Source: Gammaproteobacteria bacterium
GTDB lineage: Bacteria > Pseudomonadota > Gammaproteobacteria > UBA6429 > Thiohalophilaceae
Length of the DNA stretch: 49,940 nucleotides
NCBI GenBank assembly: GCA_022712915.1
Contig: JAFLJQ010000251.1
Location: 1-49,940, forward strand
Direction: 5' to 3'
The translations under genes and the position numbers were made by a program. Under the pieces are notes generated by a model. That model had not been told where the DNA came from. It ran no database searches and worked only from the letters and a program-made list of their open reading frames with translations. Positions 13,746-49,940 of this stretch are shown piece by piece; within the stretch, counting starts at the first letter, position 1; the number at the start of each line of letters is the position of its first letter.

Positions 13746-15233
13746 TTAACCTGCTTTCGGAATGTTTGCGACGAGTCGCAATGAAGCTGTTAGTTCTTCC
13801 ATTTGCAGCCATGGACGCATCCAGGCAATAGCACTGAAGACACCGGGTTGGCCTGGTACTTCTTTCACTTCAACGGAGGCTTCTGCTAGTGGGAAGCGAG
13901 CCTTCATTTCGGCACTGGCACCTGGTGTGGCATTGACATAGTTGGCGATCCAGCGATTGAGCCATTCTTCAGCATCGGCGGCTTCCATGAAGGAACCGAC
14001 CTTATCGCGTGCCATGACCTTGAGGAAATGAGCGATACGAGCGGTGGCCATGATGTAGGGCAGGCGCGCTGAAATGGCGGCATTGGCCGTGGCATCCGGG
14101 TCATCAAACTTCTTGGGTTTCTGGGTTGTTTGTGCTCCGAAGAATACGGCATAGTCTGTATTTTTGTAGTGGCACAGTGGTAGGAAGCCTAATTTACTGA
14201 GTTCTGCTTCGCGACGATCAGTGATGCCGATTTCAGTTGGGCATTTTTGATCCATATCACCATCATCACTGATGAAGACATGACTAGGCAGACCTTCAAC
14301 TTTACCACCACCTTCGGCACCACGAATGCTGGTACACCAGCCATATTCGGCAAAGGAACGGGTAAGGGTTGTACCCATGGTGTAGGCGGCATTCATCCAG
14401 CAGTATTGTTCGTGCCCGGCTTCAAGCTGTCGACCATCATTATCTACATTAGCTTCTTCAAAATTGAATGCTTCAACAGGCTTGGTGGAGGCACCATACG
14501 GTAGACGAGCCAGTACACGTGGCATGGTCAGGGTTACAAAGCGTGAATCCTCTGTATCCCGGAAACTGCGCCATTTAATGTATTCCGCTGAATCAAATAT
14601 TTTTTCAAGATCACGTGGCTTGGATAATTCGGTAAAGCTATCAAAGCCAAACATTTGTGGTGCTGTCGCGGAAATGAACGGGCAGAAACCGGCGGCAGCA
14701 ATATTTGAGACATTACTTAACAGATCAATGTCATCTGGGTGAGAAGAGAATTCATAGTCACCAATGAGAGCGGCATAGGGTTCACCACCGGCGATACCGA
14801 ATTCACTTTCGTAGATCTTTTTAAATGTCTGGCTTTGGTCAAACTCAACGGCCTTTTCCAAATCCTTGGCCAGTTCTTTCTTGCTGAGATTCATCATGCG
14901 AATTTTCAGCTGGGTACTGGTTTCAGAGTTCATTATGAGATGGTTCAGACCGCGCCATGAACCTTCCAGCTTCTGAAATTTTTCATTTTTCATTACCGCA
15001 GATAACTGCTTGGACATGACGGCATCAATGGCGGCAATAGCGGCATTGATGGTGACCGTGAGATTCTTGTCCCACTTGACGGTTCCATTCATGGCCTCTT
15101 GAGTCAGGGTCTTTAACAATTCCGTAGTTTCATCACCCGGAGTTTGTTTGGTTGCGTCAATAGCCTGTTCCAGAAAACTGATTTCTACCGCTTCGGCAGC
15201 TTCCTGGGTTCCTGCTTCAGTTTCAGTACTCAT
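13746..15233 (-). CDS. tssC: T6SS contractile sheath large subunit TssC
   Basis: TssC (VipB/EvpB) of 495 residues forms the contractile sheath with TssB around the Hcp tube. Signature segments in order are [14 protein letters not shown] near 88, [13 protein letters not shown] near 130, [14 protein letters not shown] near 150, [15 protein letters not shown] near 220, W-M-N-A-A-Y near 280 and [14 protein letters not shown] near 405. The C-terminal [11 protein letters not shown] closes the typical domain. Its ATG overlaps the TAA of tssB (TAATG), as expected for subunits needed in equal amounts. Of the two TssC-like genes this is the canonical one. Confidence 0.97.
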
Positions 15234-25805: not shown

Positions 25806-26558
25806 GTGACAATAGAACATCATACAGGGCTTTTTGGGAAATTACCTGCTCATGGTGATTTTGTGATGAGGCATCTTCCTCAATCATTTGTTTCTGTCTG
25901 GGATGAGTGGTTGCAACATTATATTGCTGGCTCAAAAGAACAGCTTGGTGAGGAGTGGTTAAACATTTATTTAACCAGTCCAATCTGGCGGTTTGTCTTT
26001 TCTGCCGGTGTAATTGATAACAATGTTTGGGCAGGGATTATGTTGCCGAGTGTTGATAGGGTGGGTCGTTATTATCCTCTGTCGGTCATTAGACCATTGC
26101 CGGAAAATACTATCCCATTAGAATTTATTGGTATGCAGAACAATTGGTTTTCTGCTATGGAAGAGCTTTGTCTGCAAGCCCTTAATGGGGAAGTGAAAAT
26201 TGATGATTTATCATTAGAAGTTAACGCTATTGATTTAATTGTTGATTCCAGTTACTCCTATGCAAGAGGGAATGACGGATCTACAACTGCGTTGCAGATT
26301 AATATGGACTATGAAGAACAGATGCCCGTATCTGTTTATCCTTTTTTATTTAATGCAGTATTACAGAAAACATTTGCCAGTTATGGTGTTTGGTCAACGA
26401 CAGGATCTGAAAGAATAGAACCTTGTCTTTTTTTGACTCAGTCATTACCCTCCATTAGCAGTATGCCTGCGATGTTGGATGGTCAGTGGCAGCAATGGGG
26501 TTGGCAACAACCCTATTCATTAAATGAATTCAGGGCAGTGGATATACTAGATGAGTGA
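25806..26558 (+). CDS. tagF: T6SS regulator TagF
   Basis: This protein of 250 residues starts with a GTG immediately after the tssM stop. The N-terminus H-T-G-L-F-G-K-L-P-A-H-G-D-F-V, then F-V-S-V-W-D-E-W-L-Q and W-R-F-V-F-S-A-G-V, are diagnostic of TagF (ImpM). V-G-R-Y-Y-P-L-S-V is also conserved. TagF represses T6SS activity independently of phosphorylation, by sequestering the FHA protein in some species. It overlaps pppA by 8 bases. In Agrobacterium TagF is fused to PppA, so the adjacency fits a shared regulatory role. Confidence 0.95.
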   Translation: MTIEHHTGLFGKLPAHGDFVMRHLPQSFVSVWDEWLQHYIAGSKEQLGEEWLNIYLTSPIWRFVFSAGVIDNNVWAGIMLPSVDRVGRYYPLSVIRPLPENTIPLEFIGMQNNWFSAMEELCLQALNGEVKIDDLSLEVNAIDLIVDSSYSYARGNDGSTTALQINMDYEEQMPVSVYPFLFNAVLQKTFASYGVWSTTGSERIEPCLFLTQSLPSISSMPAMLDGQWQQWGWQQPYSLNEFRAVDILDE

Positions 26559-27306
26559 TATCACAGTAAGACGTCCAGTAAAATGGCACAGTGCTGAAGA
26601 AACCAATACTGGAATGGTTCGGAACATTAATGAAGACGCTATTATGTCCAACGCTAGTGTTAAATTATGGGCTGTTGCTGATGGAATGGGAGGATATGAG
26701 GCGGGTAATGTCGCAAGTAATATGATTGTTAGCTCATTGAAAGAAATTACGGTTGCCGCTCATCTGGATGATTTGGTTACCTCAATTGAAGATTGTATTC
26801 TTGATGCGAACCAACGAATTATTGAATATGCGGAAATTATGCATGATGGGCGTATGCTTGGCAGTACACTCGTTAGTCTATTAATTCATGGTAAAGTTGG
26901 CGCATGTCTGTGGGTGGGTGATTCAAGGCTATATCGTTATCGTAATAATGAGTTAATTCAATTATCTCGCGATCATAGTCACGTGGAAGAGTTGCTGCAA
27001 AAAGGAAGCATTAGTCGTGAGGAAGCGGAAAATCATCCTGATGCGAATGTTATTACCCGTGCCGTTGGCGCGGCGGAAGAATTATATGTTGACATCAATG
27101 TTTTTGGTGCACAAGTTGGTGATATTTACATGCTTTGTAGTGATGGTTTATACAATGCCGTCGACAGTGAGAATATTATTTATTGTTTAAAAAATTTTAG
27201 TGCGGACGAGGGTGTTAAAAGTTTAATATCTAAAGCTTTGGAAAATGGTGCGCCTGATAATGTATCTGTTATTGTTGTGAAAGGTGTGCCGGCAAATGAT
27301 GGGTAA
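26551..27306 (+). CDS. pppA: T6SS protein phosphatase PppA (PP2C family)
   Basis: This protein of 251 residues is a PP2C-type Ser/Thr phosphatase. Motifs in order are R-N-I-N-E-D-A near 28, A-V-A-D-G-M-G-G-Y-E-A-G near 47 (metal-binding Asp), G-S-T-L-V-S-L-L near 108, W-V-G-D-S-R-L-Y-R near 123, and the C-terminal S-D-G-L-Y-N and P-D-N-V-S-V-I-V-V. The metal-binding Asp residues are all present, so it should be active. In T6SS it removes phosphate from the PpkA targets and turns the system off. No membrane segment or signal is visible, so it is cytoplasmic. ppkA follows after 33 bases. Confidence 0.95.
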   Translation: MSDITVRRPVKWHSAEETNTGMVRNINEDAIMSNASVKLWAVADGMGGYEAGNVASNMIVSSLKEITVAAHLDDLVTSIEDCILDANQRIIEYAEIMHDGRMLGSTLVSLLIHGKVGACLWVGDSRLYRYRNNELIQLSRDHSHVEELLQKGSISREEAENHPDANVITRAVGAAEELYVDINVFGAQVGDIYMLCSDGLYNAVDSENIIYCLKNFSADEGVKSLISKALENGAPDNVSVIVVKGVPANDG

Positions 27307-27339: not shown

Positions 27340-29991
27340 ATGAGTCATTCAGATGATAAAAAGAAGACGTTGCCAGATTGCACGGAAGATCACGGTGATA
27401 GTATAACATCGCCTGACAGAACGGTTGTTAGACCAAAAGATGTGACTCGGGTAAAGAAAAAAATACCTGCGCAGGAGCCTGTTGCCAACCCTGATGCCAG
27501 GACGATTATTAATGATCTTAGAAAAAAAGCTTTAAATCAAACCGCCCAACATAACTCAAGTGTAAATACTAAAATAAAAGGGACTGGCGTATCTCAAACT
27601 CTAAACTTGAATGAAAACCAACCTAATGCTGATACAACACGAGTTCATTCTCCATCTTCTTTAATTACAAGATCGAGTCCAGAGGGAACGAGGGATAAAA
27701 GAACTAATAATAGTCAGCACCGAATACTTAAAAACCGTTTTCTGCTAGAAAAAGTGCTGGGTGTTGGTGGTATGGGAGTCGTCTATAAGGCAAAAGACAG
27801 GCTTAAGGTAGAAGCCCACGACAGAGAACCTTATGTGGCAATTAAAGTCTTGAATGATGAATTTAAGACTCATCCGGATGCATTTATTTCACTGCAACGT
27901 GAATCCAGAAAAGCACAACGATTATCGCAACCCAATATTGTGAAGGTTTATGATTTTGATCGAGATGGTGATGTTGTCTTTATGACTATGGAATACATGG
28001 AAGGCAAGCCACTTGATCAGATAATAAAGCAGTACAGTGCCACAGGACTTCCACTGGATGATGCGATGGAGGTTATTAAAGGGATATGTTCTGCCCTTAG
28101 TCATGCGCATCTAGAACATATCATTCATTCTGATTTTAAACCGGGCAATATTTTTGTAACAACTACAGGCATAGCAAAAGTTTTTGATTTTGGGATTGCA
28201 CGGGCTGTCACGAATGTTGACCGAAAAGATGGTAAGGCTTTAGACAAGACGGTTTTTGATGCGGGTACATTAGGTGCATTAACTCCGGCCTATGCTAGTA
28301 TGGAGATGCTGCAAGGACAGGTGCCGGATGTTCGGGATGATATTTATGCATTGGGCTGTATTGTTTATGAAATGTTAACGGGTAGACATCCGTTTAATAA
28401 AATGCCAGCTGATGATGCCTGTCAGAAAGGATTGAAGCCAAAACGCATAACTACTATCAGTAAAAAACAGTGGCGGGCGATTGAAAAGTCGTTGGCTTTT
28501 AAGCGTCCGGATCGTCTTGGTACGGCTGATGAGTTTTACCGGCTTTTTACAACAAAATTTAAACCTAGCTACTTGGTCGCAGCTTTATCTGCATTGATCG
28601 TGATATTATCGACCATTGTCTATGTTAGCAATTCAAGTCAAAATGGTATTTCTGAACATGATTTGCGCAATAAAATGGAATTTAAAATTCGTTTTGATTT
28701 ATACAAAGAAGAAATTAAACGGTTGGTTGATAATGCATCCTTTTCTCTTGATTGGGAAGAAGATTTATGGCGTGAGGTTTCTGGTGTGACACAGATTTTA
28801 CCCAAGGATGATTCTTGGCTGCTGTCTTTGCGCAGGGATATACTGATACTTTATTTTGAGAAAATAAGGCAAGCTAGATCTGAAACAAAACTAGCAAGAA
28901 CAAAAATGCTGATTGATAATGCAGCAAGATATACAGATGACAAAAATATTTTGAATGATGAAAGAGCCAAGTTGGCTCAAGCAATTGAAATGGATGAAAA
29001 GCAAAAGCAGCTGTATGCTATAAATGCCAGCAAAGTAAAGCGTTCAGCATTAAAGAAAGAAATTGAAACGAAGAAAATACATGATTCTTTCAATGAAGCT
29101 CTTGCGAATGTGAATAAACAACTGCAATGTCAATTAAAATTAAGTATGAGAGATTTTGACATTGCAATAAATAAACTGAGGCTGCTTGACTATTTTCGTT
29201 ATCAGAAAATGGAGCGACGAATTATTAATTCACTATCGCTCTGTATTGTGGCTGTTGGAAAAAAATTCCCTGAACGAGCGGAAGAGGCCAAAAAATATGC
29301 ACTGAATCTTTTTGATTATAATTCTGAGATTGTGGCAATTAAAATAAAACCAAAAGACACCTGTGATGAATCGATAGCGGGATTAGGCCAATATGGCAAA
29401 CGTGGTATTTGTCGCGATAAAATTCGTGGACTAGGTTTGGGGCCTGATTTGGTAGTTGTTCCCCGTGGTAAGAATCAGAGCGCGTTTGCTATCGGAAAAT
29501 ATGAGGTTACTATTGGAGAACTCAATCAGTTCTGTAAAACTACTATAGAGTGCTCTGTTGTAACGGGAGTAATTGGCAATATGCCAGCAACTAATATTCC
29601 CATGACAACTGTTAAGAAATATATGATTTGGTTGAGCAAAAAATCAGGCAGAAAATATAGATTACCAACAAAAAGGGAATGGATTTATGCTTCAAACTCA
29701 ACAAATGACCGGCATGATCCAAATCGTAATTGCCAACTGAGCAGTCGTGGTATTCAAAAAGGTAGCGGATTAGTAAATACAGCTACAGGAAAGCAAAATT
29801 CATGGGGCTTGGTTAATTATCTGGGCAATGCTCAGGAGTGGGTTTATGCTAATGGTGGTAAGCTGGCCACTGTCGGCGGCTCATATCAGGATTCGATGGA
29901 TAAATGCAATACACTTGCCTGGAATTTCCATTCTGGTAAAGCAGATAGAATGACAGGTTTTCGATTACTTAGAGAGTTAATGGAAAAATAA
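27340..29991 (+). CDS. ppkA: T6SS Ser/Thr kinase PpkA with a periplasmic FGE/SUMF1-like domain
   Basis: This protein of 883 residues has three parts. The disordered N-terminus contains R-T-V-V-R-P (Thr28) and R-T-I-I-N-D (Thr55). The kinase domain (about 128-405) has V-G-G-M-G-V-V-Y, V-A-I-K-V, H-S-D-F-K-P-G-N-I-F (Ser replaces the Arg of HRD) and D-F-G-I-A-R. After one membrane helix (about 408-428, A-A-L-S-A-L-I-V-I-L-S-T-I-V-Y-V) comes a periplasmic coiled region and a C-terminal sulfatase-modifying-factor-like fold (about 680-880; A-I-G-K-Y-E-V-T, R-L-P-T-K-R-E-W, A-Q-E-W-V, G-F-R-L). The Cys pair needed for formylglycine formation is not recognisable, so it is probably a ligand-binding sensor. 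The kinase turns T6SS on by phosphorylating FHA partners. Confidence 0.93.
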   Translation: MSHSDDKKKTLPDCTEDHGDSITSPDRTVVRPKDVTRVKKKIPAQEPVANPDARTIINDLRKKALNQTAQHNSSVNTKIKGTGVSQTLNLNENQPNADTTRVHSPSSLITRSSPEGTRDKRTNNSQHRILKNRFLLEKVLGVGGMGVVYKAKDRLKVEAHDREPYVAIKVLNDEFKTHPDAFISLQRESRKAQRLSQPNIVKVYDFDRDGDVVFMTMEYMEGKPLDQIIKQYSATGLPLDDAMEVIKGICSALSHAHLEHIIHSDFKPGNIFVTTTGIAKVFDFGIARAVTNVDRKDGKALDKTVFDAGTLGALTPAYASMEMLQGQVPDVRDDIYALGCIVYEMLTGRHPFNKMPADDACQKGLKPKRITTISKKQWRAIEKSLAFKRPDRLGTADEFYRLFTTKFKPSYLVAALSALIVILSTIVYVSNSSQNGISEHDLRNKMEFKIRFDLYKEEIKRLVDNASFSLDWEEDLWREVSGVTQILPKDDSWLLSLRRDILILYFEKIRQARSETKLARTKMLIDNAARYTDDKNILNDERAKLAQAIEMDEKQKQLYAINASKVKRSALKKEIETKKIHDSFNEALANVNKQLQCQLKLSMRDFDIAINKLRLLDYFRYQKMERRIINSLSLCIVAVGKKFPERAEEAKKYALNLFDYNSEIVAIKIKPKDTCDESIAGLGQYGKRGICRDKIRGLGLGPDLVVVPRGKNQSAFAIGKYEVTIGELNQFCKTTIECSVVTGVIGNMPATNIPMTTVKKYMIWLSKKSGRKYRLPTKREWIYASNSTNDRHDPNRNCQLSSRGIQKGSGLVNTATGKQNSWGLVNYLGNAQEWVYANGGKLATVGGSYQDSMDKCNTLAWNFHSGKADRMTGFRLLRELMEK

Positions 29992-30285: not shown

Positions 30286-30903
30286 ATGGATGTTATAAAG
30301 TTTTTTCAGACCGGAGGGCCATTTATGTATCCTATATTAATAGTATTTGCGATTGGTCTCGCTATAGCCATTGAGAGATTTTTGTATCTGTCAAAGACTC
30401 ATCGATTAACAATTAAGGTGTGGGCTCAATTGATCCCTATGCTCAGAGCTAGTGACTTTCAACGGGCTGTCAAATTAACTGAATCTATTAGAACGCCTCT
30501 TTGCAGTGTTTTGAGCTATGGTTTTTCACGGCACAGTGCTAACAAACGTCGTGAAATAATAGAGTCTGCTATGGAGGAAGGTATGATGGATGCCATGCCA
30601 GAATTGGAGCAGCGTACGCATTATTTAGCAACCTATGCCAATGTTGCTACGTTGCTAGGGCTTCTGGGTACCATTGTGGGCCTGATTCAGGCATTTACAG
30701 CTGTAGCCGCAGCTGATCCAGCAGAAAAAGCCGATTTATTGTCAGCCAGTATTTCGGTTGCCATGAATACAACAGCTTTTGGTCTGATGGCGGCTATACC
30801 GTTATTATTACTTCATTCCTACCTTGTGACTAAGACAGCACTTGTTGTCGGAAACCTCGAAAAGGCCGCAATAAAAAGCATTAATCTGATGGTTCAGGAC
30901 TGA
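30286..30903 (+). CDS. MotA/TolQ/ExbB-family proton channel subunit
   Basis: This protein of 205 residues has three membrane segments: F-M-Y-P-I-L-I-V-F-A-I-G-L-A-I-A-I-E near 13-32, then a pair near 105-190 with Y-A-N-V-A-T-L-L-G-L-L-G-T-I-V-G and N-T-T-A-F-G-L-M-A-A-I-P. G-L-L-G-T-V-x-G-(L/M)-I-x-x-F is the TolQ/ExbB signature. It forms the stator with the two ExbD-like proteins downstream and uses the proton gradient to power an envelope process. A GAGGG lies about 10 bases upstream of the ATG. This combination (TolQ, two TolR, TonB/AgmX) resembles AglR-AglQ-AglS of Myxococcus more than the Tol-Pal system, since no tolA, tolB or pal is found nearby. Confidence 0.93.
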   Translation: MDVIKFFQTGGPFMYPILIVFAIGLAIAIERFLYLSKTHRLTIKVWAQLIPMLRASDFQRAVKLTESIRTPLCSVLSYGFSRHSANKRREIIESAMEEGMMDAMPELEQRTHYLATYANVATLLGLLGTIVGLIQAFTAVAAADPAEKADLLSASISVAMNTTAFGLMAAIPLLLLHSYLVTKTALVVGNLEKAAIKSINLMVQD

Positions 30904-30916
30904 AGGTGAATTGATT

Positions 30917-31423
30917 ATGAAGAGGCTTAGTAAAAAATATATAGCAGAAGCGCAAGAGCTTAATATTACGGCCTTCATGAATTTGATGGTAATTCTAGTG
31001 CCATTTTTGTTGATTACAGCGGTATTTTCCAGGATTACGGTATTGGAATTAAATTTACCATCTCTGAATTCCAAGTTAAAGGAACAGGATAAGGTTAAAC
31101 TCCAGCTTGAATTGGTTTTGCGAAAAAACTCTTTTGATATACAGGATGTGAATTTAGGAGTTATTAAAAAATTTGAACGAAAAAATGGTGAGACTCGATG
31201 GGACTTGTTCAAGGATGTATTGGTTGAAATAAAAACTAGGTTTCCCGATGAAAATAATATAACACTCTTACTCGAACCGGATATTAATTATAAAACTTTG
31301 ATTAGGGTCATGGATCATGTTAGAAGTGCAGATGTTGTACAGGGATTGAGTTTGGAAACAGTTGAACTATTTCCCAATATATCAATTGGTGATGCTGAGC
31401 AAGTTGTTGGTCAAGAAGGTTAA
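30917..31423 (+). CDS. ExbD/TolR-family protein lacking the membrane Asp
   Basis: The ATG at 30917 has AAGGTGA at a 7-base spacing and gives 168 residues. A TTG six bases earlier was rejected. There is a single N-terminal membrane helix (about 18-40). Where ExbD/TolR proteins carry an Asp needed for proton use (as in x-x-x-D-x-x-x-x-L-L), this one has Asn22 in I-T-A-F-M-N-L-M-V-I-L-V-P-F-L-L. The periplasmic domain (about 45-168) has the TolR-like I-N-Y-K-T-L-I-R-V-M-D-H-V-R stretch near 135. It probably forms a hetero-dimer or trimer with the next gene, which has the Asp. It starts 13 bases after the TolQ-like gene. Confidence 0.9.
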   Translation: MKRLSKKYIAEAQELNITAFMNLMVILVPFLLITAVFSRITVLELNLPSLNSKLKEQDKVKLQLELVLRKNSFDIQDVNLGVIKKFERKNGETRWDLFKDVLVEIKTRFPDENNITLLLEPDINYKTLIRVMDHVRSADVVQGLSLETVELFPNISIGDAEQVVGQEG

Positions 31424-31429
31424 GTAAAC

Positions 31430-31939
31430 GTGAAGTTGATGAAAATATCAAGCCGTGCACAACGCATGGTACAATTTAAAAAACTGCATGGCAAGGCAGG
31501 TTTGAATCTGGTTTCATTGATGGATATTTTTACTATCCTGGTGTTTTTTTTACTCGTAAGTTCTTCAAACATTCAACAATTACCAAATAATAAAAAAATA
31601 ACCTTACCGACATCAGTTGCAGAAAAATTACCTAAAGAAACTATTGTCATCGCAATTACAAAAACAGCAATACTTGTTCAAGGAGTAGAAGTCGCGAAAA
31701 TTGATATAGCGATAAAAAATGAGAAATTGGTAATTGTCAAACTTGAACAAGAGCTTAAATTTCACGCATCAAAAGTGACTTATTCCAGTGAGACGGGGGA
31801 AATCAATCGATCTGTTACCATCATGGGCGATGAAAATGTACCATATCAGCTACTACGAAAGATACTTGCGTCATGTCGTCAGGCTAATTATACACAGATA
31901 GCTTTTGCGGTTTTGCAAAAGGCTAAGGACAAGGATTGA
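31430..31939 (+). CDS. ExbD/TolR-family protein with the membrane Asp
   Basis: This protein of 169 residues (GTG start; ATG at 31439 is an alternative) starts with a basic tail and one membrane helix (about 26-48). It keeps the conserved Asp32 in L-V-S-L-M-D-I-F-T-I-L-V-F-F-L-L, and should carry the proton. The periplasmic part contains I-T-L-P-T-S, V-I-A-I-T-K-T-A-I-L-V and V-P-Y-Q-L-L-R-K-I-L-A-S-C-R-Q-A-N-Y-T-Q-I, matching the ExbD/TolR C-terminal fold. It is coupled to its neighbours (6 bases after the previous stop, a TGATG overlap with the next start). The pair with the Asp-less partner is noteworthy. Confidence 0.92.
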   Translation: MKLMKISSRAQRMVQFKKLHGKAGLNLVSLMDIFTILVFFLLVSSSNIQQLPNNKKITLPTSVAEKLPKETIVIAITKTAILVQGVEVAKIDIAIKNEKLVIVKLEQELKFHASKVTYSSETGEINRSVTIMGDENVPYQLLRKILASCRQANYTQIAFAVLQKAKDKD

Positions 31940-32862
31940 TGGCAGTTTTGACGTATGAATATCTGGCTCTGCAATGGACGCCTGTACGCAAACGAGATCA
32001 TAGTTTTAATGTCTTGGCGACGATTATTGTTGCTGGATTATTATTTGTTGCTATTGTTATTTCCTCAATTAAACTTCCAGAAGAGGAGCGGAAGGCACGT
32101 ACCGTTGTACCTGAGCGTATTGCAAAATTTATTCTCCAGAAGGAGAAACCAAAGAATGTTAAGCCTAAGCCTATACCAAAACCTAAAATAAGATTAAAAC
32201 CAAAACGTACGGAAGCATTGAAAAAACCTCTTACAAAAAATCAGAAGAAAGCACGTAATAAAGCAGCCGATAGTGGCCTTCTGGCTCTAGGTAATGAACT
32301 TTCTGACCTTATTGATACTAGAAGCATTGATGCTATGGTTGGAAGAAAACTATCTAGTTCCAGTTTGGCGAGTAAAAAAGCTTCTGTTAATACGAATATT
32401 TTGACGGATGATGTTAACAGAGGAAGTGGTGGTATTTCTGTGAATGATGTGCCAACACTTATCGGCAAGACGGTACTAGACAACAAAGAAAGGCTGGAAC
32501 TACAACAATCAATTATGTCCTCTAATTCAGGTAAGGTAGATAAACCTAAAAAACGGGGTTATCGAGGGGAGGGACTGCGTTCTGAGGAAGAGATTGCGAT
32601 TGTTATGGATCAGAACAAAAGCCAGCTACATAGTCTTTACAGGCGGGCAAGACGGACAGACCCGGGTTTGAAGGGTAAAATTGTACTCGCAATTACGATA
32701 CTGCCATCCGGGCAGGTATCAAAAATAGAAGTTCGCTCCAGTGAACTGAAGTCTCCTAGACTGGAAGCAAGAATTATTGCTCGTATCAAGCGCTTTAATT
32801 TTGGTGTCAGAGGGGTAGAAACTGTTACTGTTACCTATCCCATTGAATTTCTACCATCATGA
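31939..32862 (+). CDS. TonB/AgmX-type energy transducer
   Basis: The ATG at 31939 overlaps the stop of the exbD gene (TGATG), and the protein has 307 residues. One membrane helix (about 22-45, V-L-A-T-I-I-V-A-G-L-L-F-V-A-I-V-I-S-S) is followed by a Lys/Pro-rich stretch (about 67-95, P-K-P-I-P-K-P-K-I-R-L-K-P-K) as in TonB, a disordered middle, and a C-terminal domain (about 210-307). That domain has L-H-S-L-Y-R-R-A-R-R-T-D-P-G-L-K-G-K-I-V and I-x-P-S-G-Q-V-S-K-I-E-V-R-S-S-E-L, typical of TonB/AgmX C-terminal domains. It is the last gene of the operon and probably the periplasm-spanning element moved by the TolQ/ExbD motor. Its outer-membrane partner is not in the window. Confidence 0.9.
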   Translation: MAVLTYEYLALQWTPVRKRDHSFNVLATIIVAGLLFVAIVISSIKLPEEERKARTVVPERIAKFILQKEKPKNVKPKPIPKPKIRLKPKRTEALKKPLTKNQKKARNKAADSGLLALGNELSDLIDTRSIDAMVGRKLSSSSLASKKASVNTNILTDDVNRGSGGISVNDVPTLIGKTVLDNKERLELQQSIMSSNSGKVDKPKKRGYRGEGLRSEEEIAIVMDQNKSQLHSLYRRARRTDPGLKGKIVLAITILPSGQVSKIEVRSSELKSPRLEARIIARIKRFNFGVRGVETVTVTYPIEFLPS

Positions 32863-33174
32863 TAGATTCTAAAACATCGATTAGGTAATATATCTGTGAA
32901 TTATGCACATATAGGTCGCGGTGATGTGTATGGTGAAATTGTAATTAATTCAATAGGTTGAGATTTCTTTTCTCAACTGATTACGCGTAAACCCAAAAAG
33001 CATCAGGATTAGTGAGGGTCTAAGATTGATTTTTTGCTCTATACATTATTAATTATATTTCTTACTTTTTCATAAAAGGATGATAAACTTGACATGAAGT
33101 CTAAAAATTAAACTGTCTGGCATTTGTGAAAAATATAAAGTACCGAAAGGGTCAAGTTTTAAGGGTTATTGATT
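32863..33174. other. 312-base gap after the TonB-like gene
   Basis: There is no gene. A 7-bp hairpin (GTTGAGA - TTTCTTT - TCTCAAC, 32957-32977) is the most likely end signal of the long right operon, although it is not followed by a clean T-run. Further on, TTGACA at 33089-33094 is a perfect -35, but the best -10-like word (TAAACT, 33109-33114) is only 14 bases away, so a promoter for the next gene is not certain. Confidence 0.4.
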
Positions 33175-34410
33175 ATGTATCTTGAGCATTTTGGTCTGAA
33201 AGAATTTCCATTTAGTCTGGCGGCTGATCCCAAATTTTTGTATTTGGGCAAGTCTCATGCCCGTGTAAAGGCTCAGATTGAGTATGCTCTTTATATTCAG
33301 GATAGTCTGGTTGTCTTTACTGGTGAAATAGGTTCTGGTAAGACAACGTTGTTGCATGATGCATTAGCAAAATTTAATGACAATATCATTGTAGCAAAAA
33401 TCCATCAAACCCAAATAAATGAAATTGAATTTCTTCAGCTTCTTCTTGCCGAGTTTGGCTTTGAGCTTTTTGAGGCTTCTAAAGTTGAGCTGTTAAATAC
33501 GGTATCTACATTCCTAAAAGAAAAACTGCATGAAAGGAAGAAGGTTGTGCTCATCATTGATGAGGCGCAAAATCTGGGCAAACGGGTGTTAGAAGAAGTA
33601 CGATTATTGTCTGATTTACAAAGTGGACATGAAAAATTACTTACCGTTGTAATAGTAGGGCAGCCAGAATTAAATGAAATTATCGACAGTCCTGGAATGG
33701 AGCAGTTTGTTCAGAGGATACGGCTTCGATTTCATATATCAGCTTTAACTGACGAAGAAATACCTGAATATATTCAACATAGGCTAAATGTGGCAGGTTA
33801 TGGTAAGCCTGATTTATTCGGTGAAGATACAACTCGACTAATTCATACTTACACAGGTGGTCGTCCGAGGTTACTGAATATTCTCTGTGATTATGCGTTA
33901 ATGAATTGTGCTGTTGAAAATAAGAATCAAGTTACCAGACAAGTAATTGAGGAGGTGCTGTCAGAATTGCAGTGGCAGCCGTATGAGCAACGCTTTGGCA
34001 GAATTAAAAGTTATTCTGCTTTGGATGCACATTCGGATATGCATAATATTGCCAAGTTAAATGTTACTAAAAATGATAAACAGATTGGCACTTTTGATTT
34101 AGATAAGGAATATTTTTCGATAGGTAGAAGGGCTGATAATGATTTTTTAATTGATGATAAAAAAGTTAGCCGTTATCATGCCCAGATTGTAACTAATGAT
34201 GGTGAGTCATATTTAAGAGATTTGGATAGTACGAATGGTACTTATATCGGCTCAGATCTGGTTGAGACACATCATTTAACCGATGGTGAAATTTTCACAA
34301 TAACGGATATTTCTTTTCACTATATAAAAGCATCGGGTGATGAAGTGAGTACTGAAGAAAAATTTGGGAAGATTCTCGAGTATCGCAAGCCTAAAAAGAA
34401 TAATAACTAG
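33175..34410 (+). CDS. ExeA/GspA-like AAA ATPase fused to a C-terminal FHA domain
   Basis: The ATG at 33175 is preceded by AAGGG nine bases upstream and gives 411 residues; a TTG six bases earlier was rejected. The N-terminus Y-L-E-H-F-G-L-K-E-F-P-F-S-L-A-A-D-P is typical of ExeA-type ATPases. Walker A is G-E-I-G-S-G-K-T-T at residue 50, Walker B is V-V-L-I-I-D-E-A-Q, and a G-G-R-P-R-L-L-N-I-L-C-D segment follows near 230. The C-terminal third (about 300-395) is an FHA domain with F-S-I-G-R-R-A-D-N-D, V-S-R-Y-H-A-Q-I and D-S-T-N-G-T-Y. ExeA normally carries a peptidoglycan-binding domain and a membrane segment. Neither is here, so this is a soluble phosphothreonine-reading ATPase. It converges with the FHA gene at a 28-base gap. 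Confidence 0.9.
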   Translation: MYLEHFGLKEFPFSLAADPKFLYLGKSHARVKAQIEYALYIQDSLVVFTGEIGSGKTTLLHDALAKFNDNIIVAKIHQTQINEIEFLQLLLAEFGFELFEASKVELLNTVSTFLKEKLHERKKVVLIIDEAQNLGKRVLEEVRLLSDLQSGHEKLLTVVIVGQPELNEIIDSPGMEQFVQRIRLRFHISALTDEEIPEYIQHRLNVAGYGKPDLFGEDTTRLIHTYTGGRPRLLNILCDYALMNCAVENKNQVTRQVIEEVLSELQWQPYEQRFGRIKSYSALDAHSDMHNIAKLNVTKNDKQIGTFDLDKEYFSIGRRADNDFLIDDKKVSRYHAQIVTNDGESYLRDLDSTNGTYIGSDLVETHHLTDGEIFTITDISFHYIKASGDEVSTEEKFGKILEYRKPKKNNN

Positions 34411-34438
34411 TTTCTCATATATTGAGTATACGCTAACT

Positions 34439-35107
34439 CTAGTACAGATAAAAAAACTCCATTTGTGTACCTGCTAATTCTAGGATATCCCGGTCATTTA
34501 GCGTTGTGGAATCATGGTTAATTGGGTGTTGGTTTAGTAAAGGGCATTCGTCAGGTTTTTTGGTATGGGCTGTTTTTATGGTGGAAATTGAATAACCATC
34601 GATATTGCGGCTAATCATTGCCAGTTTATGACCATTAAAACCAAGTGTGTTAAATGGTTTTCGCAGCTCCAGAACTTTTTTGGCCATTGGTCCATTTAAT
34701 ATACGAACGGCAGCAAGGCGCTCCCCCTTTTTTATGATAGACGCGGAGCTGGTATCAATGATCTGTGTATCTTCTATTTCCGCCCTAATAAACATAGTGG
34801 GTTCATAGTCATTGTTTTCCTCGCAGAAGAATGTAAATTGATAATTACCTGTTTGAATAGTATCACCATGACCTAATTGTGATTTGGCTATACGAGCACC
34901 ATTTAGTAATGTTCCATTGGTGCTTCCTAAATCGTCAACATAGGTGTGTTCACCCATAATAGTGATCAATGCATGCCTACCGCTGATGGTCAGGTCATTC
35001 AGTTGAATATCATTACCGTGCTTTCGTCCGATACTTATACTATCTTTGTCAATCTCATATTCGCGTATGACAGCACCATCGAGTGTCAGAATTAGCTTTG
35101 CCATCAT
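34439..35107 (-). CDS. FHA-domain protein with a second degenerate FHA-like domain
   Basis: This protein of 222 residues has an N-terminal FHA domain (about 20-95) carrying S-I-G-R-K-H-G-N-D-I, S-G-R-H-A-L-I and D-L-G-S-T-N-G-T-L. It should bind phosphothreonine. Residues about 130-222 look like a second, degenerate FHA fold (F-N-T-L-G-F-N-G-H-K-L-A, I-S-T-I, L-N-D-R-D-I-L-E-L-A-G-T-Q-M-E-F-F-Y), without the S-x-x-H and N-G motifs. There is no membrane helix. Its start overlaps the end of the PilT-like gene by 4 bases (ATGA), and it closes the kinase-PilT-PilT-FHA operon. A natural guess is that it reads the phosphorylation set by the HEAT-repeat kinase. Confidence 0.88.
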   Translation of the reverse strand: MMAKLILTLDGAVIREYEIDKDSISIGRKHGNDIQLNDLTISGRHALITIMGEHTYVDDLGSTNGTLLNGARIAKSQLGHGDTIQTGNYQFTFFCEENNDYEPTMFIRAEIEDTQIIDTSSASIIKKGERLAAVRILNGPMAKKVLELRKPFNTLGFNGHKLAMISRNIDGYSISTIKTAHTKKPDECPLLNQHPINHDSTTLNDRDILELAGTQMEFFYLY

Positions 35108-36249
35108 TCTATGCCTGTTACATTTATTGTATTACCAATTGTACTTGAAGAACCAGAGGAAGATGGCCCTTGATCATTTTCACTTATTTCGTTTTCACTT
35201 CTGAAGTGTTCAAACTCTGTTTTGTTTCTTGATTTTAGGTAGGCTTCCTTCCTTGAAATAATTTGGGCATCAAGTAATTTCCGTATTGCGGTATCCATGC
35301 GTTGCATCCCCTGTATTGCACCGCTTTGAATAATATTATCTAGCTGATCTGTTTTGCCTTCGCGAATTATATTCGATACTGCAGCATTATTTATCATAAT
35401 TTCAAGAGCAGCAATTCGAGATTTTCGGTCAGCAGTAAGTAATAATTGCTGTGAAATTACGGCAATCAGTGAAGTTGATAGCATTGTCCTTACATATGGC
35501 TCTTCGCCAGCTGGAAAGACATTAATTATTCGGTCGACAGAAGAGGCGGCTCCATTGGTGTGAAGTGTGGCGATAACCAGAATACCGGTTTCAGCAGCGG
35601 TGAGGGCTAGATGAATGGTTTCCAGATCACGCATTTCACCTATTAATATTACGTCAGGGTCTTCTCTCAGAGATGAACGTAGTGCATCTGAAAATCCAGC
35701 AGTATGTGAACCAATTTCCCTCTGGCTCATCAGGCATTTTTTATTTGGATGGATAAATTCTATTGGATCTTCAATGGTTATAATATGACCATTTTTTTCG
35801 CTGTTGATGAAGTCAACCATAGCCGATAGGGTTGTTGATTTGCCAGACCCTGTTGGTCCTGTAACCAGAATTAAGCCTTTTTGCTGTCGACATAGGTTTT
35901 TTAATACCGGTGGTAAGTTAAGGTCGTTAAGTTTTTGGATTTGATTTGGAATGGCACGAAAAACTGCACCGATGCCCCCAAGGTGTTGAAAAATATTGAC
36001 ACGGAATCGTGCCATATTTTCAACTTCATAAGCAAAATCAGCGCCACCCTCTTGTTCGTAGATAGTTTTAATACCTGCGGGCATGATTTCGTAAAGGAGC
36101 TCGGTGGTTTCTTTGCTTGTTAACTCACGGTATTTAACAGTAAACGTTTCACCATGAAGGCGGATTCTGGGAGAGTTTCCTGATACAAGATGCAGATCAG
36201 AACCACCTTGTTTTATCACCAGTTCCAGAAAGGCATCGATTCTATTCAT
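35104..36249 (-). CDS. PilT-like ATPase (second copy)
   Basis: This 381-residue ATPase is of the type IV pilus retraction/T2SS superfamily. It opens R-I-D-A-F-L-E-L-V-I-K-Q-G-G-S-D-L-H-L, the PilT beginning. It has Walker A G-P-T-G-S-G-K-S-T near 135, an Asp box I-E-D-P-I-E-F-I-H, Walker B-like D-V-I-L-I-G-E-M-R-D, and a His box V-I-A-T-L-H-T-N. The retraction ATPase motif A-I-R-N-L-I-R-E-G-K is represented by V-S-N-I-I-R-E-G-K near 300. The C-terminus is longer and Ser-rich (last 35 residues). It follows the first PilT-like gene by one base. No pilin, pilQ, pilB or pilC is seen within the window. Confidence 0.9.
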   Translation of the reverse strand: MNRIDAFLELVIKQGGSDLHLVSGNSPRIRLHGETFTVKYRELTSKETTELLYEIMPAGIKTIYEQEGGADFAYEVENMARFRVNIFQHLGGIGAVFRAIPNQIQKLNDLNLPPVLKNLCRQQKGLILVTGPTGSGKSTTLSAMVDFINSEKNGHIITIEDPIEFIHPNKKCLMSQREIGSHTAGFSDALRSSLREDPDVILIGEMRDLETIHLALTAAETGILVIATLHTNGAASSVDRIINVFPAGEEPYVRTMLSTSLIAVISQQLLLTADRKSRIAALEIMINNAAVSNIIREGKTDQLDNIIQSGAIQGMQRMDTAIRKLLDAQIISRKEAYLKSRNKTEFEHFRSENEISENDQGPSSSGSSSTIGNTINVTGIE

Positions 36250-36250
36250 G

Positions 36251-37345
36251 TCAATTTATGGCTAAGTTAATTTGTGGCAGCAAATCTGGATTTGTTATAT
36301 ATCTTTGAAATTGTTTCTTATCCAATGCATGGATGTAGGTATCATCTGGATCAATTTCTTTATTTTTTAATGCTTCAAGTAGAGCTTGATCCATAAGTTG
36401 CATCCCAAGCTCTTTACCAGTTTGTATGGAGCTTGGGATCTGAAATACTTTACTGGATAAAATAAGTCTTGATATTGCAGGAGTGTTAATCATGATCTCT
36501 ACAATGGCTTTACGGCTTCGACCATCGGCAGTTCTGACTAGTTTCTGGCTGATTACGCCTTTTAAATGTTGTGATAGGAACGTTGTAGCAAGAGACTTTT
36601 GCATTGTTGGCATAGCATCAATAATCCTGTCGATCGTTTTCACTGCTGAAGTGGTATGTAATGTGCCGAGTACCAGATGACCGGTTTCGGCAGCCGTCAT
36701 GGCCATTGATATGGTTTCGGGGTCACGCAATTCGCCAACAAGGATAACATCTGGATCTTCTCGTAATGCTGCGCGTAATCCTTCAGCAAAATTTTTAACA
36801 TGAGTACCGACGGTACGTTGTATTATTAAGGACTGTTTACTCTTATGTACAAATTCAATGGGATCCTCGAGTGTAATAATATTATAACGGCGATTATTAT
36901 TTAGCCAGTCAATCATCGATGCAAGCGTGGTGGATTTTCCTGTCCCTGTTGCTCCAGTTACAAGTATGAGTCCTTGGTTTGTATGTAGGAATTTTTCTAT
37001 AATTGAAGGCAGCCCTAATTCAGTTAGGCTGGGTATCTTGGGTGCTATAGTCCGCAGACTTGCACCGATGCCTTTAAATTTACGGTATAAATTTACTCTG
37101 AATCTGCCAACATCTTCATGTTCATAGGAAAAATCAAGATCTTGACCAGATAAAAATATAGTCTTCTGCTCTGGAGTTAAAATCTCATAGACTAGTTCTT
37201 CAAGTTCAGTATCTGAAAGATTTCGGTATTTAATGGTTTGTAATTCACCGTGTAAACGAATAAGAGGAGGGCATCCAACTGCAAGGTGAATATCCGAGCC
37301 ACCTTGTTCTCGCCCAAGTTTAAGAAAGGCATTGATTCTGGCCAT
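36251..37345 (-). CDS. PilT-like ATPase (first copy)
   Basis: This protein of 364 residues is related to the next gene but clearly different. It has R-E-Q-G-G-S-D-I-H-L-A near the start, Walker A G-A-T-G-T-G-K-S-T near 130, L-E-D-P-I-E-F-V-H-K, D-V-I-L-V-G-E-L-R-D-P-E-T, and H-box L-G-T-L-H-T-T. The retraction-motif position reads I-S-R-L-I-L-S-S-K and the following segment Q-I-P-S-S-I-Q-T-G-K-E-L-G-M-Q-L-M-D is close to genuine PilT/PilU. Its start overlaps the kinase gene stop, so kinase and ATPase are co-translated. PilT proteins are hexameric motors. With no pilus genes here, the partner could be a pilus elsewhere or something else. Confidence 0.92.
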   Translation of the reverse strand: MARINAFLKLGREQGGSDIHLAVGCPPLIRLHGELQTIKYRNLSDTELEELVYEILTPEQKTIFLSGQDLDFSYEHEDVGRFRVNLYRKFKGIGASLRTIAPKIPSLTELGLPSIIEKFLHTNQGLILVTGATGTGKSTTLASMIDWLNNNRRYNIITLEDPIEFVHKSKQSLIIQRTVGTHVKNFAEGLRAALREDPDVILVGELRDPETISMAMTAAETGHLVLGTLHTTSAVKTIDRIIDAMPTMQKSLATTFLSQHLKGVISQKLVRTADGRSRKAIVEIMINTPAISRLILSSKVFQIPSSIQTGKELGMQLMDQALLEALKNKEIDPDDTYIHALDKKQFQRYITNPDLLPQINLAIN

Positions 37346-39729
37346 TATGCCGCTTCCTTCTTTAGGAGGTATTCCAGATCATGTTGCATTGCGGTGATGT
37401 CTTGATAGCGGTCATCAGGGTTGGTTGCTATGGCCTTCATAATAATGGCATTAAGCTCATTACTAATTTTCGGATTTGCCTGGTTGGCTGGTTTAGCATT
37501 ACCTTCAACATGTTTAAATAATGTCGCCATATGATCTTCTCCTTTGTATGGAGGATGGCCGGTAAATATTTCATACATTAGAATACCAAGGCTATATATA
37601 TCAGTCCTGGCATCAATTGTTCTGGCGCGAACTTGTTCAGGGGCCATATAAGTGGGGGTGCCTACAAGAATTCCGCTTTTGGTTAGCCGGGCATCTGATT
37701 GGCTGGCAGCAGCAGCGAGACCAAAGTCAACAACTTTCACTAGATTATTCTCTCCAACCAGAATATTAGCAGGTTTGAGATCGCGATGTACCACTCCGGC
37801 ATTGTGTGCGACTGCCATGGCTTTGCATATATCACAGAAAATTTGTTTAATTCGAGTATGGTCTCTTGTTCGTTTTGTTTTTATTTCATAGGCAAGAGAA
37901 TGACTTGAAAAATACTCCATTGAAATGGCATATGATTTCCCAAATGTGATGAAGTCGTATATACGGATGACATTTTCATGAGTTATTTTTCTTGCGAAGC
38001 GAAGTTCATGAATAAAGCGTTGAATAACACTTTCATCTGAGGCCATGTGTGGGTTGAGAAATTTCAGAATGATATCCTCATTGACCATCATATCTTTGAC
38101 GAGTACGACTACACCGAAGGCTCCTTTACCAACTTGACGGATAATTTTATAACGTTCGGCAAGTACCTGATCTGGTTTTAATTTGGCAGCGTCAATAATG
38201 TGTGCTGTATAGATGTCTGATGTCTCAGTGGTATTTGAGAGGTCAATAACAGAGTTTTTATCCTCAGTAATAACTGTTTCATCAACACGTCTGTTTGTAT
38301 CATGTCCCGCGATATGCGCAACAATGGTTTTTAATGTTGAGTTAGCCAGATCCTTAAATGCAGTATTTGAGTTTATGGTGAGTTGTTGTAATGCATTTTT
38401 GACAAGAGGTAGCATTTCCTCATCAGTTAGTATGGCAAGTGCTTGTAAAATATCCTTGCCCCATTTGTCTTGTGATTTTGACAAAATTTGGAGTAGTGGT
38501 TTGATGGCCGTTTTATCGTTCAAGGAGGCAATGGATTGTATCGCTACAGGTGCTGACTCAGGATGTGTCTTAATCATTTTTAGAAGTGAAGGGACAACTC
38601 TTTTGTCACCGAGCTGCCCCAAGGCATCTGCCGCACGTTCGCGCACCCACCAGTCATCATCACTTAAGGCTTTGGCAAGGTGTACAACGGCTCGTTTGTC
38701 CTTAATTGAATTAAGAATTTCAACGGCTGTGCGACGTAAAAATTCATCTTTATTTTTAATCAGTTCTAAAACCGCATCAACAACTTTTGGTCCTCCAATA
38801 CTTCCCAGAGCATCTGCTGCACGTACTTTGACCCACCAATCTTTGTCGCGCATGGCAATTAACAAATCATGGATAGCGCTGGGATCACCGACTTCATTTA
38901 ATACTTCAACGGCAGCTCTGCGCACATATTCTGATTCGTCTTGTAATATATCGATTAGGTATTTTACGGTAGTTGGATCCTTTATTTTTGTTAGTGCGTC
39001 GATGGCTTTGCTTTGTACGGTAAGATCTGGATCCTTGAGTAATTGACAAAGTGGTTTGGCTGGTACCGGTATACTGGTTTCTCCCAGACCTTCAATAGCC
39101 GCTTGCCGGACATTTTTGTTGGGATCATTAATTGCCTGAAGTAGAGCATCACATACAGACTCTGTATGAAACCGTGAAATAATTTTTATTATGTTAAAAC
39201 GAATATTCAGGTCAGGACTGTTTGCATATCGAAGTAGATCATTTAAATGGGATTCTTGTGCAACCTCATCAAGTACTTTTAAAATCATGAGGCGAATATT
39301 TTTTTCTACATTGTTTAGCATGCCTAACAGGATTTTGACACTTAATTTTCCTTGATGAGCGAGTAATATTTGAACGAGGACATTTTTGGGAATATCCGGG
39401 TCGTCAAATAATTCAAAAAGTCTGTTTGGATCATATTGTCTTGAATTGGCAAGTATCCGCATTGTGCCTGCTATTATGCGGCCATCTTGATTGGCCAATC
39501 CATCCACATAATGGGACAGAGTTCGGTTATCAAGCATGGAGATAAGTAGCTGCTCGATGGGCGAGTTAGCGGGAGATTCACCTAATGCATGGATTAATTT
39601 TGGTATCGCCTGAGCGCCTATTTGTTTTAATTTGGCGACAGCTTCTTTGGCTTCCAGGCTATGTATACTTGAACAGCCGAGAAGTGTATCTATTGCTTTA
39701 TTTGCTTTAAATCCTTTAATTAAACTCAT
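37345..39729 (-). CDS. HEAT-repeat protein with C-terminal Ser/Thr kinase
   Basis: This protein of 794 residues has two parts. Residues about 10-470 consist of HEAT/PBS-lyase-type repeats of about 31 residues, with clear copies such as V-R-R-A-A-V-E-V-L-N-E-V-G-D-P-S-A-I and V-R-E-R-A-A-D-A-L-G-Q-L-G-D-K-R-V-V. Residues about 523-790 form a Hanks-type kinase: G-K-G-A-F-G-V-V-V, the Lys in I-L-K-F-L, H-R-D-L-K-P-A-N-I-L near 646, V-D-F-G-L-A, P-T-Y-M-A-P-E-Q and D-I-Y-S-L-G. All catalytic residues are present. There is no membrane segment, so it is a soluble kinase. It is the first gene of a tight operon with the two PilT-like ATPases and the FHA protein. The HEAT array likely recruits the substrate. 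Confidence 0.94.
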   Translation of the reverse strand: MSLIKGFKANKAIDTLLGCSSIHSLEAKEAVAKLKQIGAQAIPKLIHALGESPANSPIEQLLISMLDNRTLSHYVDGLANQDGRIIAGTMRILANSRQYDPNRLFELFDDPDIPKNVLVQILLAHQGKLSVKILLGMLNNVEKNIRLMILKVLDEVAQESHLNDLLRYANSPDLNIRFNIIKIISRFHTESVCDALLQAINDPNKNVRQAAIEGLGETSIPVPAKPLCQLLKDPDLTVQSKAIDALTKIKDPTTVKYLIDILQDESEYVRRAAVEVLNEVGDPSAIHDLLIAMRDKDWWVKVRAADALGSIGGPKVVDAVLELIKNKDEFLRRTAVEILNSIKDKRAVVHLAKALSDDDWWVRERAADALGQLGDKRVVPSLLKMIKTHPESAPVAIQSIASLNDKTAIKPLLQILSKSQDKWGKDILQALAILTDEEMLPLVKNALQQLTINSNTAFKDLANSTLKTIVAHIAGHDTNRRVDETVITEDKNSVIDLSNTTETSDIYTAHIIDAAKLKPDQVLAERYKIIRQVGKGAFGVVVLVKDMMVNEDIILKFLNPHMASDESVIQRFIHELRFARKITHENVIRIYDFITFGKSYAISMEYFSSHSLAYEIKTKRTRDHTRIKQIFCDICKAMAVAHNAGVVHRDLKPANILVGENNLVKVVDFGLAAAASQSDARLTKSGILVGTPTYMAPEQVRARTIDARTDIYSLGILMYEIFTGHPPYKGEDHMATLFKHVEGNAKPANQANPKISNELNAIIMKAIATNPDDRYQDITAMQHDLEYLLKKEAA

Positions 39730-48571: not shown

Positions 48572-49940
48572 TTACCCATATCGACGGACGAGCGGAGTCA
48601 CAATTGGCTTGTGAAATGCTATCCCCCCTTTTAATATGCGACAAAAATCATTTAACAAGCTGTTTAATGCGTAAAAAAGCAGCACAAAAAAATGGACTAA
48701 CCATTTTTTCAAGTTCCAGGCACTCGCAGCCATCAATAAATTTAAAGGGTCGCCCAACTCGCCTTTCAGATAATTTCTCGACAATCTGAAGTCTTGTTTT
48801 AAGTGACCAATAATGGGTTCGATGGCGGCACGCCTGCGACACTGTTTTCTTTTTTTGTCTCGTTGATATCGGTTGTCTTTTTTGAGTGCTTTCTTCGGTA
48901 AAATAATGTCTGTTCCGTTCACTTCATTTTTGCCACGGTAGCCTCGGTCACAAACCGCTTGCTTAACGGCTTTGCCGCGTGAAGTTTCGATATGCTCCAG
49001 CACTTCAGGTAGTGTGTGACTATCGTGATAATTATTTGGGTGACTCACTACACCAACAATAATATTTGTTTTAGCGGTTGATGCCACAGAGGCTTTGCTG
49101 CCATATTCATACTGAACGTGATCTTTTCCTTTGGCCATGCAATACACTTGTGGCTCATGCAAAGAATAGATTTTGTTCTTATCCTTGGATTGTTGTGACA
49201 GCACTTTTCATACATCAAAAAATCAGCCTGATAACACTCAAATAAAGCATATTGGGGGAGTGTACGACGTAATTCTCTGATCAATGCATTGGCGATGGTT
49301 CTAAGGCGTTTAAGTGCGCGCGTTGCTTTTTTTCTTTTTTTAACATGACGGAAGTGTCGAATATCCAAGCGCAATCCTTTCACTTCTTTTACAAACGTTC
49401 GGCGTTGCTGAATACCCTGTGTTTTGGCTATTTTATTGAGTCTATTAATGATCTTGATCGCCAGTTTACTATCTGTGGGATAAGTGATATTTTTTTCCTG
49501 GACTGTCGTGTCAATATTTACCGCACTTTCTAAAGCTGCGCGACCATGTAATGCAATGCTCATTTGAAATATTTTTTCAGCACCTTCCTGACCAATGCGT
49601 TTTCAAAAATGAACCAATTCAGTTGAACAACAAGGTTGTGATCGTTGGAACGTTGTCATGCCACAAAAAGCCTGGTAGTAAGCGTTGCGTTTCCATTGCA
49701 AGACAACGGCTTCATCACTTAAATTTTCCAAATGTTTGAGTAGGCGTAAGCCCACCATTAAACGGATGGGTTTGCTTGGTGCACCAATATCTTTGCTGTC
49801 GTGTTTGGCAAAGGCATCATCGAAATCTTTCCAGGGAATAACCGAGGATAATTGTAATAATGGATCGTTGGGATCGAGCTGTATCAGTAGATCCGTGCCA
49901 AACAGGTTGGTTTGATGAAACTCGGTGCTTTTTGTGAGCA
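48572..49940 (-). pseudogene. IS5-type transposase gene, broken twice (runs off the window end)
   Basis: Read on the minus strand from the window end, the frame is open from 49940 to a TGA at 49605-49603, where the codon breaks the V-H-F-(R)-K-R-I-G motif of this family (CGA to TGA is likely). The frame goes on through A-V-N-I-D-T-T-V-Q-E-K-N (first catalytic Asp) to about 49204. There a one-base loss (expected AAGGTGCTG, found AAGTGCTG) shifts the frame. The rest, down to 48572, holds Y-S-L-H-E-P-Q-V-Y-C, D-R-G-Y-R-G (second Asp) and A-A-I-E-P-I-I-G-H-L-K (catalytic Glu). The start codon is outside the window. It is inactive as it stands. Confidence 0.85.

Follow-up and report, generated by a model that had tools for sequence, protein, structure and literature searches.

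The locus and its genes

We analysed a stretch of 49,940 nt, hereafter called the window, from a gammaproteobacterium of the Thiohalophilaceae (assembly GCA_022712915.1, contig JAFLJQ010000251.1). A tight operon on its minus strand encodes, in this order, a HEAT-repeat Ser/Thr kinase, two PilT-family ATPases, designated PilT-X1 and PilT-X2 (X1 and X2), and an FHA protein. An ExeA-type ATPase with an FHA domain (ExeA-FHA) is encoded opposite, on the plus strand (Table 1). The window also holds a complete type VI secretion system (T6SS) with a PpkA/PppA/TagF/Fha set. A preliminary description of this DNA had proposed that the five genes form a phospho-switch-plus-motor module. The five open reading frames are real and lie where they had been placed. 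The junctions of the four-gene operon, reported as overlapping or nearly touching, were read directly: the kinase stop and the X1 start overlap by 1 nt (TAATG), X1 and X2 are 1 nt apart, and the X2 stop overlaps the start of the FHA protein gene by 4 nt (ATGA).

Table 1. Positions and properties of the operon genes and of neighbouring features in the window
Feature	Position	Strand	Properties
HEAT-repeat Ser/Thr kinase, core gene	37345..39729	-	794 aa; HEAT solenoid ~1-480, linker, kinase domain ~521-790; Pfam HEAT_2 and Pkinase
PilT-X1, PilT-family ATPase, core gene	36251..37345	-	TIGR01420 431.3 bits; own clade 100/100
PilT-X2, PilT-family ATPase, core gene	35104..36249	-	TIGR01420 445.5 bits; own clade 99/97; Thr259 at the Glu position of PilT
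FHA protein	34439..35107	-	FHA1 ~1-97; disordered linker 98-128; degenerate second FHA-like domain ~130-220; Pfam FHA
ExeA/XrtA-type AAA ATPase with C-terminal FHA domain, facultative neighbour	33169..34410	+	AAA_22 and FHA; tail to tail with the operon
ExbB, ExbD, ExbD, AgmX/TonB-like proton-channel set	30286..32862	+	MotA_ExbB, two ExbD, NF033768 AgmX/PglI C-terminal domain; between T6SS and module
PP2C phosphatase of the T6SS cluster, PppA-like	26551..27306	+	Pfam PP2C match; sole PP2C found in the window

The PilT-family pair and its putative switch proteins

Both X1 and X2 exceeded the cut-off of the family profile TIGR01420 (pilT_fam, 319.1 bits). In a maximum-likelihood tree of 108 sequences, X1, X2, PilT (100/99), and PilU (100/100) formed four separate groups. 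X1 and X2 are sister clades (99/83), which fall inside the PilT/PilU family and closer to PilT than to PilU. Orthologs of X1 were found in 28 genomes among 58 relatives, nearly always with X2 as the next gene. They share 59-83% identity and are clearly set apart from housekeeping PilT (~43-49% identity to X1) and PilU (36-40%). As judged from the tree, X1 and X2 are paralogs of the canonical pilT/pilU, not orthologs.

The other PF00437 genes of the genome are pilT-pilU on contig C82, two secretion ATPase genes on C207, and one on C185. Contig C207 carries a gsp cluster with pilins, pilB (858 bits), pilC, and pilD beside it, and pilQ is located on C58. Since pilT-pilU lies on another contig, X1 and X2 of the window represent a second PilT-family pair. 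The pair had been called pilus-less. This is correct for the window, where none of the proteins tested was a pilin, PilB, PilC, or secretin, but not for the genome, with its pilT-pilU, pilB, pilC, pilD, and pilQ on other contigs. X1 and X2 as the sole pilT/pilU of a piliated genome, which the preliminary description regarded as fatal to its module, were thus ruled out; a separate canonical pilT (> 490 bits) also occurs in 46 of the 50 module genomes introduced below.

The Walker A motif, the Asp box, the Walker B motif with its catalytic Glu, and the His box are kept in all 41 X1 and 41 X2 sequences (in X1, Walker A reads GATGTGKST and Walker B DVILVGELRD). The region of AIRNLIRE, the C-terminal motif of PilT, is partially kept in X2 (AvsN.iReGk) and mostly lost from X1; PilU departs from it too. 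At position 259, where canonical PilT has Glu (12/12), X2 carries Thr in 40 of 41 sequences and Ser in one. With a phosphorylatable residue replacing a fixed negative charge, Thr259 appears to be a natural candidate for a switch. Across the 41 loci, the divergence of X1 correlates with that of X2 (Spearman 0.84).

The kinase matched the Pkinase family with 186 bits, and its orthologs align over the full length. The intact catalytic core previously ascribed to it is indeed complete and, in 18 orthologs, invariant, comprising the Gly-loop (G534/G536), K556, E575, the HRD (648-650), N655, the DFG (668-670), and the APE motif (696-698). In the first FHA domain (FHA1) of the FHA protein, the phosphothreonine-binding residues R28, S42, H45, and N64 are invariant among 41 orthologs, as are Thr104 and Thr114 of the linker. 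The linker, with its near-invariant motif YEPTMF.xAE..ET, is predicted to be disordered (predicted local distance difference test score, pLDDT, < 50 in the structure model).

The nearest folds to FHA1 include GarA, OdhI, and EmbR. Fold matches spanned residues 1-99 only, and none was obtained for the C-terminal half on its own. This half forms a beta-sandwich in the model and aligns to FHA1 (hhalign probability 76%, E = 2e-5). Its sequence identifies it as a degenerate second FHA-like domain from which the Arg/Ser/His/Asn set for phosphothreonine binding is missing. The earlier designation of the protein as a double FHA is therefore appropriate for the fold, but Pfam recognizes one FHA domain and the second lacks the binding residues.

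Two other assignments were rejected. An assignment to the T6SS-associated FHA protein TagH/Fha failed (TIGR03354, 38.7 and 35.4 bits with a cut-off of 120.25); the real TagH is encoded at 17615-19120. Matches of PADLOC to anti-phage defence kinases (PD-T4-6, MADS) were confined to the generic kinase domain and the HEAT repeats, and X1 and X2 scored below 28 bits.

Conservation and neighbourhood of the module

Kinase, X1, and X2 were adjacent, in the same order, and on the same strand in all 41 loci inspected, which excludes chance. The subset of 20 loci selected by the kinase alone showed this order without exception. Of 40 genomes of the order, 27 contain a full-length kinase ortholog. An evenly drawn sample of 369 genomes from the class included 50 with the module, covering ~28 families. 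In a phylum-wide sample (299 genomes, at least 85% complete), it was detected only in the source genome itself; this draw seems to be weighted toward other lineages than the class draw. The FHA protein is encoded next in most loci, and some loci have two copies. When the collection was scanned with the FHA-protein alignment, it yielded ~50 full-length FHA-protein orthologs, all titled uncultured gammaproteobacterial metagenome-assembled genomes, and nearly all of them lie in the same kinase-X1-X2 operon. The loci selected by the FHA protein overlap partly with the 41 loci, as some come from the same genomes. Thus, the association of kinase and FHA protein, on which the earlier proposal depended, is conserved. 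The phospho-switch-plus-motor module itself is borne out by the invariant gene order, the intact kinase and ATPase motifs, and the PP2C and additional FHA proteins found in many genomes.

The module looks vertically inherited, in view of the correlated divergence of X1 and X2 and of neighbours such as NlpC and PBP1b that are common to one family. Plasmid carriage was rejected; a plasmid collection matched conserved PilT stretches only. Locus L082 (8366-10944) has a tandem of genes for a kinase, a PP2C, and a protein distantly related to the FHA protein (37% identity), and no PilT-like gene was found there. This arrangement is possibly an older, motor-less form of the switch.

Several neighbours of the module are facultative. 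Among the FHA-selected loci, a PP2C phosphatase gene was present in 17 and a gene for a divergent FHA-GAF-HD-GYP protein, found in many lineages, in 18. A class III cyclase-FHA fusion occurs in three loci, all of which are without the FHA protein. For the window, the PppA-like PP2C of the T6SS is a possible eraser, whereas in other lineages a dedicated PP2C adjoins the module. ExeA-FHA, previously counted as a core part, turned out to be a neighbour of the module in only 6 of 41 loci, of which two belong to genomes free of a T6SS (G005, G017). Its TIGR03015 score of 271 bits is below the cut-off of 324.5. In some genomes, RND-type efflux genes sit between the module and ExeA-FHA, and in much of the family they follow directly downstream of the module (L014, L015, L016, L019-L022, L025).

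In 30 of 41 loci (seen in L035-L083, for example L038 4872-5342), the gene directly upstream of the kinase encodes a protein of ~157 aa, which was not found in the window. In the structure model (pLDDT 86), this protein is predicted to form two small beta-barrels that weakly resemble Hfq/Sm proteins. No Pfam family scored above the cut-off, Foldseek gave no significant match (E >= 0.13), and the Hfq-like alignments were weak (Z <= 4.2); hence, we claim no family. Profile comparison did not support an internal duplication (E = 0.05).

Elsewhere in the window, the Exb/AgmX set is similar in domain content to the proton-channel parts of the myxobacterial gliding motor (AglRQS/GltG type). This set also lies near the module in L013, L014, and L019 (genomes G001, G004, G010), and a similar set is present in L124 (G378). 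The T6SS cluster contains two consecutive, differing VipB/TssC-type sheath genes (12172-13695 and 13746-15233) and a PpkA-like kinase with a C-terminal FGE-sulfatase-like domain (27340-29991). A remnant of a transposase DDE domain lies near the window end (48572-49204).

A proposed accessory pilus motor under phospho-control

The module was found in genomes that also encode type IV pili, one of the associations that the preliminary description had left to be determined: PilQ was above cut-off in 47 and a strong PilB was present in 43 of the 50 module genomes. On balance, we lean slightly towards the reading that X1 and X2 serve the ordinary type IVa pilus as an accessory pair of motors, controlled by a dedicated set of Ser/Thr kinase, phosphatase, and FHA proteins. 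An accessory motor is suggested because the kinase-X1-X2 order is invariant, X1 and X2 belong to the PilT/PilU family with their catalytic motifs kept, and canonical pilT, PilQ, and PilB are present. A phospho-switch is suggested because writer, reader, and eraser genes cluster, the FHA1 binding residues and the two linker threonines are invariant, and the folds are close to GarA and OdhI, which are substrates of Ser/Thr protein kinases. Gene order, conservation, orthology, intact catalytic motifs, and pilus co-occurrence were observed; the phosphorylation events, the interactions, and the pilus as the target are inferred.

Several observations weigh against this assignment. Most of the AIRNLIRE region is gone from X1. 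In none of the loci read was the module located beside pilBCD, pilMNOPQ, or pilT-pilU. PilB is present in 272 of the 369 sampled class genomes. As most genomes of the class are thus piliated anyway, the co-occurrence of module and pilus (Fisher p = 0.04) is weak evidence, consistent with a pilus role but no proof of it. Furthermore, gsp genes lie within several kb of the module in two lineages (L124 and L133), and in the closed genome G378, where module and PilQ are present, no PilB scored above cut-off. This genome (a single 2.4 Mb contig; L124, L162-L164) encodes PilQ, pilT, pilU, a third pilU-like gene, X1, and X2, and its only strong PilB/GspE-type match is the GspE of its type II secretion system (T2SS).

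Four alternatives were considered. X1 and X2 might do little mechanical work and serve as sensors of pilus state or load at the pilus base, with the kinase and FHA proteins yielding an output in cyclic di-GMP (c-di-GMP, via FHA-HD-GYP) or cAMP (via cyclase-FHA). Retraction is already supplied by the canonical PilT/PilU, and FHA-GAF-HD-GYP and class III cyclase-FHA proteins adjoin the module in many lineages. The second-messenger enzymes are, however, missing from many loci, including the window, and the preserved Walker and catalytic motifs in X1 and X2 suggest that ATP turnover matters. We regard a purely signalling role as rather unlikely.

It is improbable that X1 and X2 work on another type II/IV platform, of which the T2SS endopilus (GspF) would be the likeliest, and act there as a phospho-gated motor for disassembly. 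In L133, gsp genes follow the module downstream, and in G378 (GspE, no PilB above cut-off) they lie within several kb of it. Both findings point in this direction, as does a GspA/ExeA-like ATPase-FHA nearby in part of the family. A tblastn scan and direct reading nevertheless placed gsp genes near only 2 of 41 loci, and we know of no retraction ATPase of a T2SS.

Similarly little credence is due to the idea that X1 and X2 have no platform of their own and have turned into regulators that depend on phosphorylation and control, for instance, gene expression or the assembly of PilB/PilT. It would fit with the lack of any structural pilus gene coupled to the module and with the upstream ~157-aa protein, with its two predicted beta-barrels and weak Hfq-like resemblance, but hardly with a full-length PilT architecture whose ATPase motifs have all been kept across a large divergence.

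The weakest rival, a motor and phospho-switch for the adjacent T6SS or another nearby envelope process, is very improbable: module and T6SS do co-occur above chance over 58 genomes (16 with both, odds ratio 5.3, p = 0.007), but the association is not significant within the family (p = 0.15), 14 of 30 module genomes lack TssM although 9 of these 14 are at least 90% complete, and TssM occurs without the module in 5 genomes. The special tie to the T6SS suggested earlier is not upheld by these numbers, and dependence on a T6SS was rejected as a requirement on the co-occurrence data; T6SS-free genomes carry the same operon.

The accessory-motor reading allows a more specific, and clearly more tentative, proposal of a phospho-gated gammaproteobacterial pilus motor. 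In this proposal, kinase, PP2C, and FHA protein would switch the engagement of X1 and X2 with the pilus, Thr259 would act as a reversible stand-in for the Glu of PilT, and second-messenger enzymes would read the state through their FHA domains. Under the accessory-motor reading itself, an input would turn the kinase on or off, with the HEAT solenoid as the likely docking or sensing surface. The kinase would then phosphorylate the linker threonines of the FHA protein and/or X2, where Thr259 is the prime candidate. FHA1 may bind phosphothreonine either in its own linker, a self-inhibition like that of GarA, or on X2 or on the kinase, and this binding would decide whether the X1/X2 hexamers engage with the PilC platform. 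Their engagement would change the speed, the force, or the on/off state of retraction, compared with the constitutive PilT/PilU. PP2C would reset the switch, and in part of the lineages the FHA-HD-GYP or cyclase-FHA neighbours may relay its state to c-di-GMP or cAMP.

Elements of such a system are known from elsewhere. Several PilT paralogs with divided roles have been described, namely four in Geobacter (PilT1-4; PMC5065972) and PilT2 in Neisseria (PMC10790696). X1 and X2 share with these the family profile, the intact ATPase motifs, the adjacent arrangement, and the presence alongside housekeeping PilT/PilU, but form separate clades and belong to an operon with a Ser/Thr kinase and an FHA protein outside the pil cluster. 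The archaellum, a pilus-like machine, is already known to be under kinase-FHA control (PMC5300886, PMC6509490, PMC7472852). The Sulfolobus network comprises the FHA protein ArnA, the vWA protein ArnB, the kinases ArnC and ArnD, and PP2A. The fold matches of the module's FHA protein include the FHA domain of ArnA (Z = 14.8). The published role of ArnA/ArnB is, however, repression of archaellum expression, and the set has no motor ATPase, whereas the module encodes motors in its operon and no DNA-binding domain was found in it.

In actinobacteria, GarA and OdhI are FHA proteins whose switch is the phosphorylation of a Thr motif (ETTS in GarA) in an unstructured segment (PMC5448819). The FHA protein of the module resembles GarA/OdhI, the partners of PknB/PknG, in its small size, its conserved Thr motif in an unstructured segment, and its closest folds. 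Its motif, however, is located C-terminal to FHA1 and is followed by a second FHA-like domain, and GarA and OdhI regulate metabolic enzymes, not pilus motors. The T6SS threonine phosphorylation pathway in the same window (PpkA-PppA-Fha-TagF) has the logic of kinase, PP2C, and FHA in common with the module but consists of separate genes, has a different kinase architecture (PpkA with its FGE-sulfatase-like domain), and lacks PilT-family motors; moreover, the module exists without a T6SS. In the open-licence literature searched, we found no description of a PilT-family pair that comes with its own kinase and FHA reader, in agreement with the earlier statement that this is not a described system.

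The on/off control of type IV pilus retraction is only partly understood, and we know of no Ser/Thr kinase system that is encoded together with a retraction motor. Our analysis suggests that module-bearing gammaproteobacteria, most of them uncultured, control the pulling of their pili by protein phosphorylation. If true, the module would be a compact genetic system, with writer, reader, eraser, and motors together, in which to test how one of the very strong motors of biology is controlled post-translationally. It would also be the bacterial counterpart of the archaellum with its kinase-FHA control, and would give a likely role to a gene set that is present in many gammaproteobacteria from environmental metagenomes, whose extra pilT genes would otherwise just be annotated as pilT.

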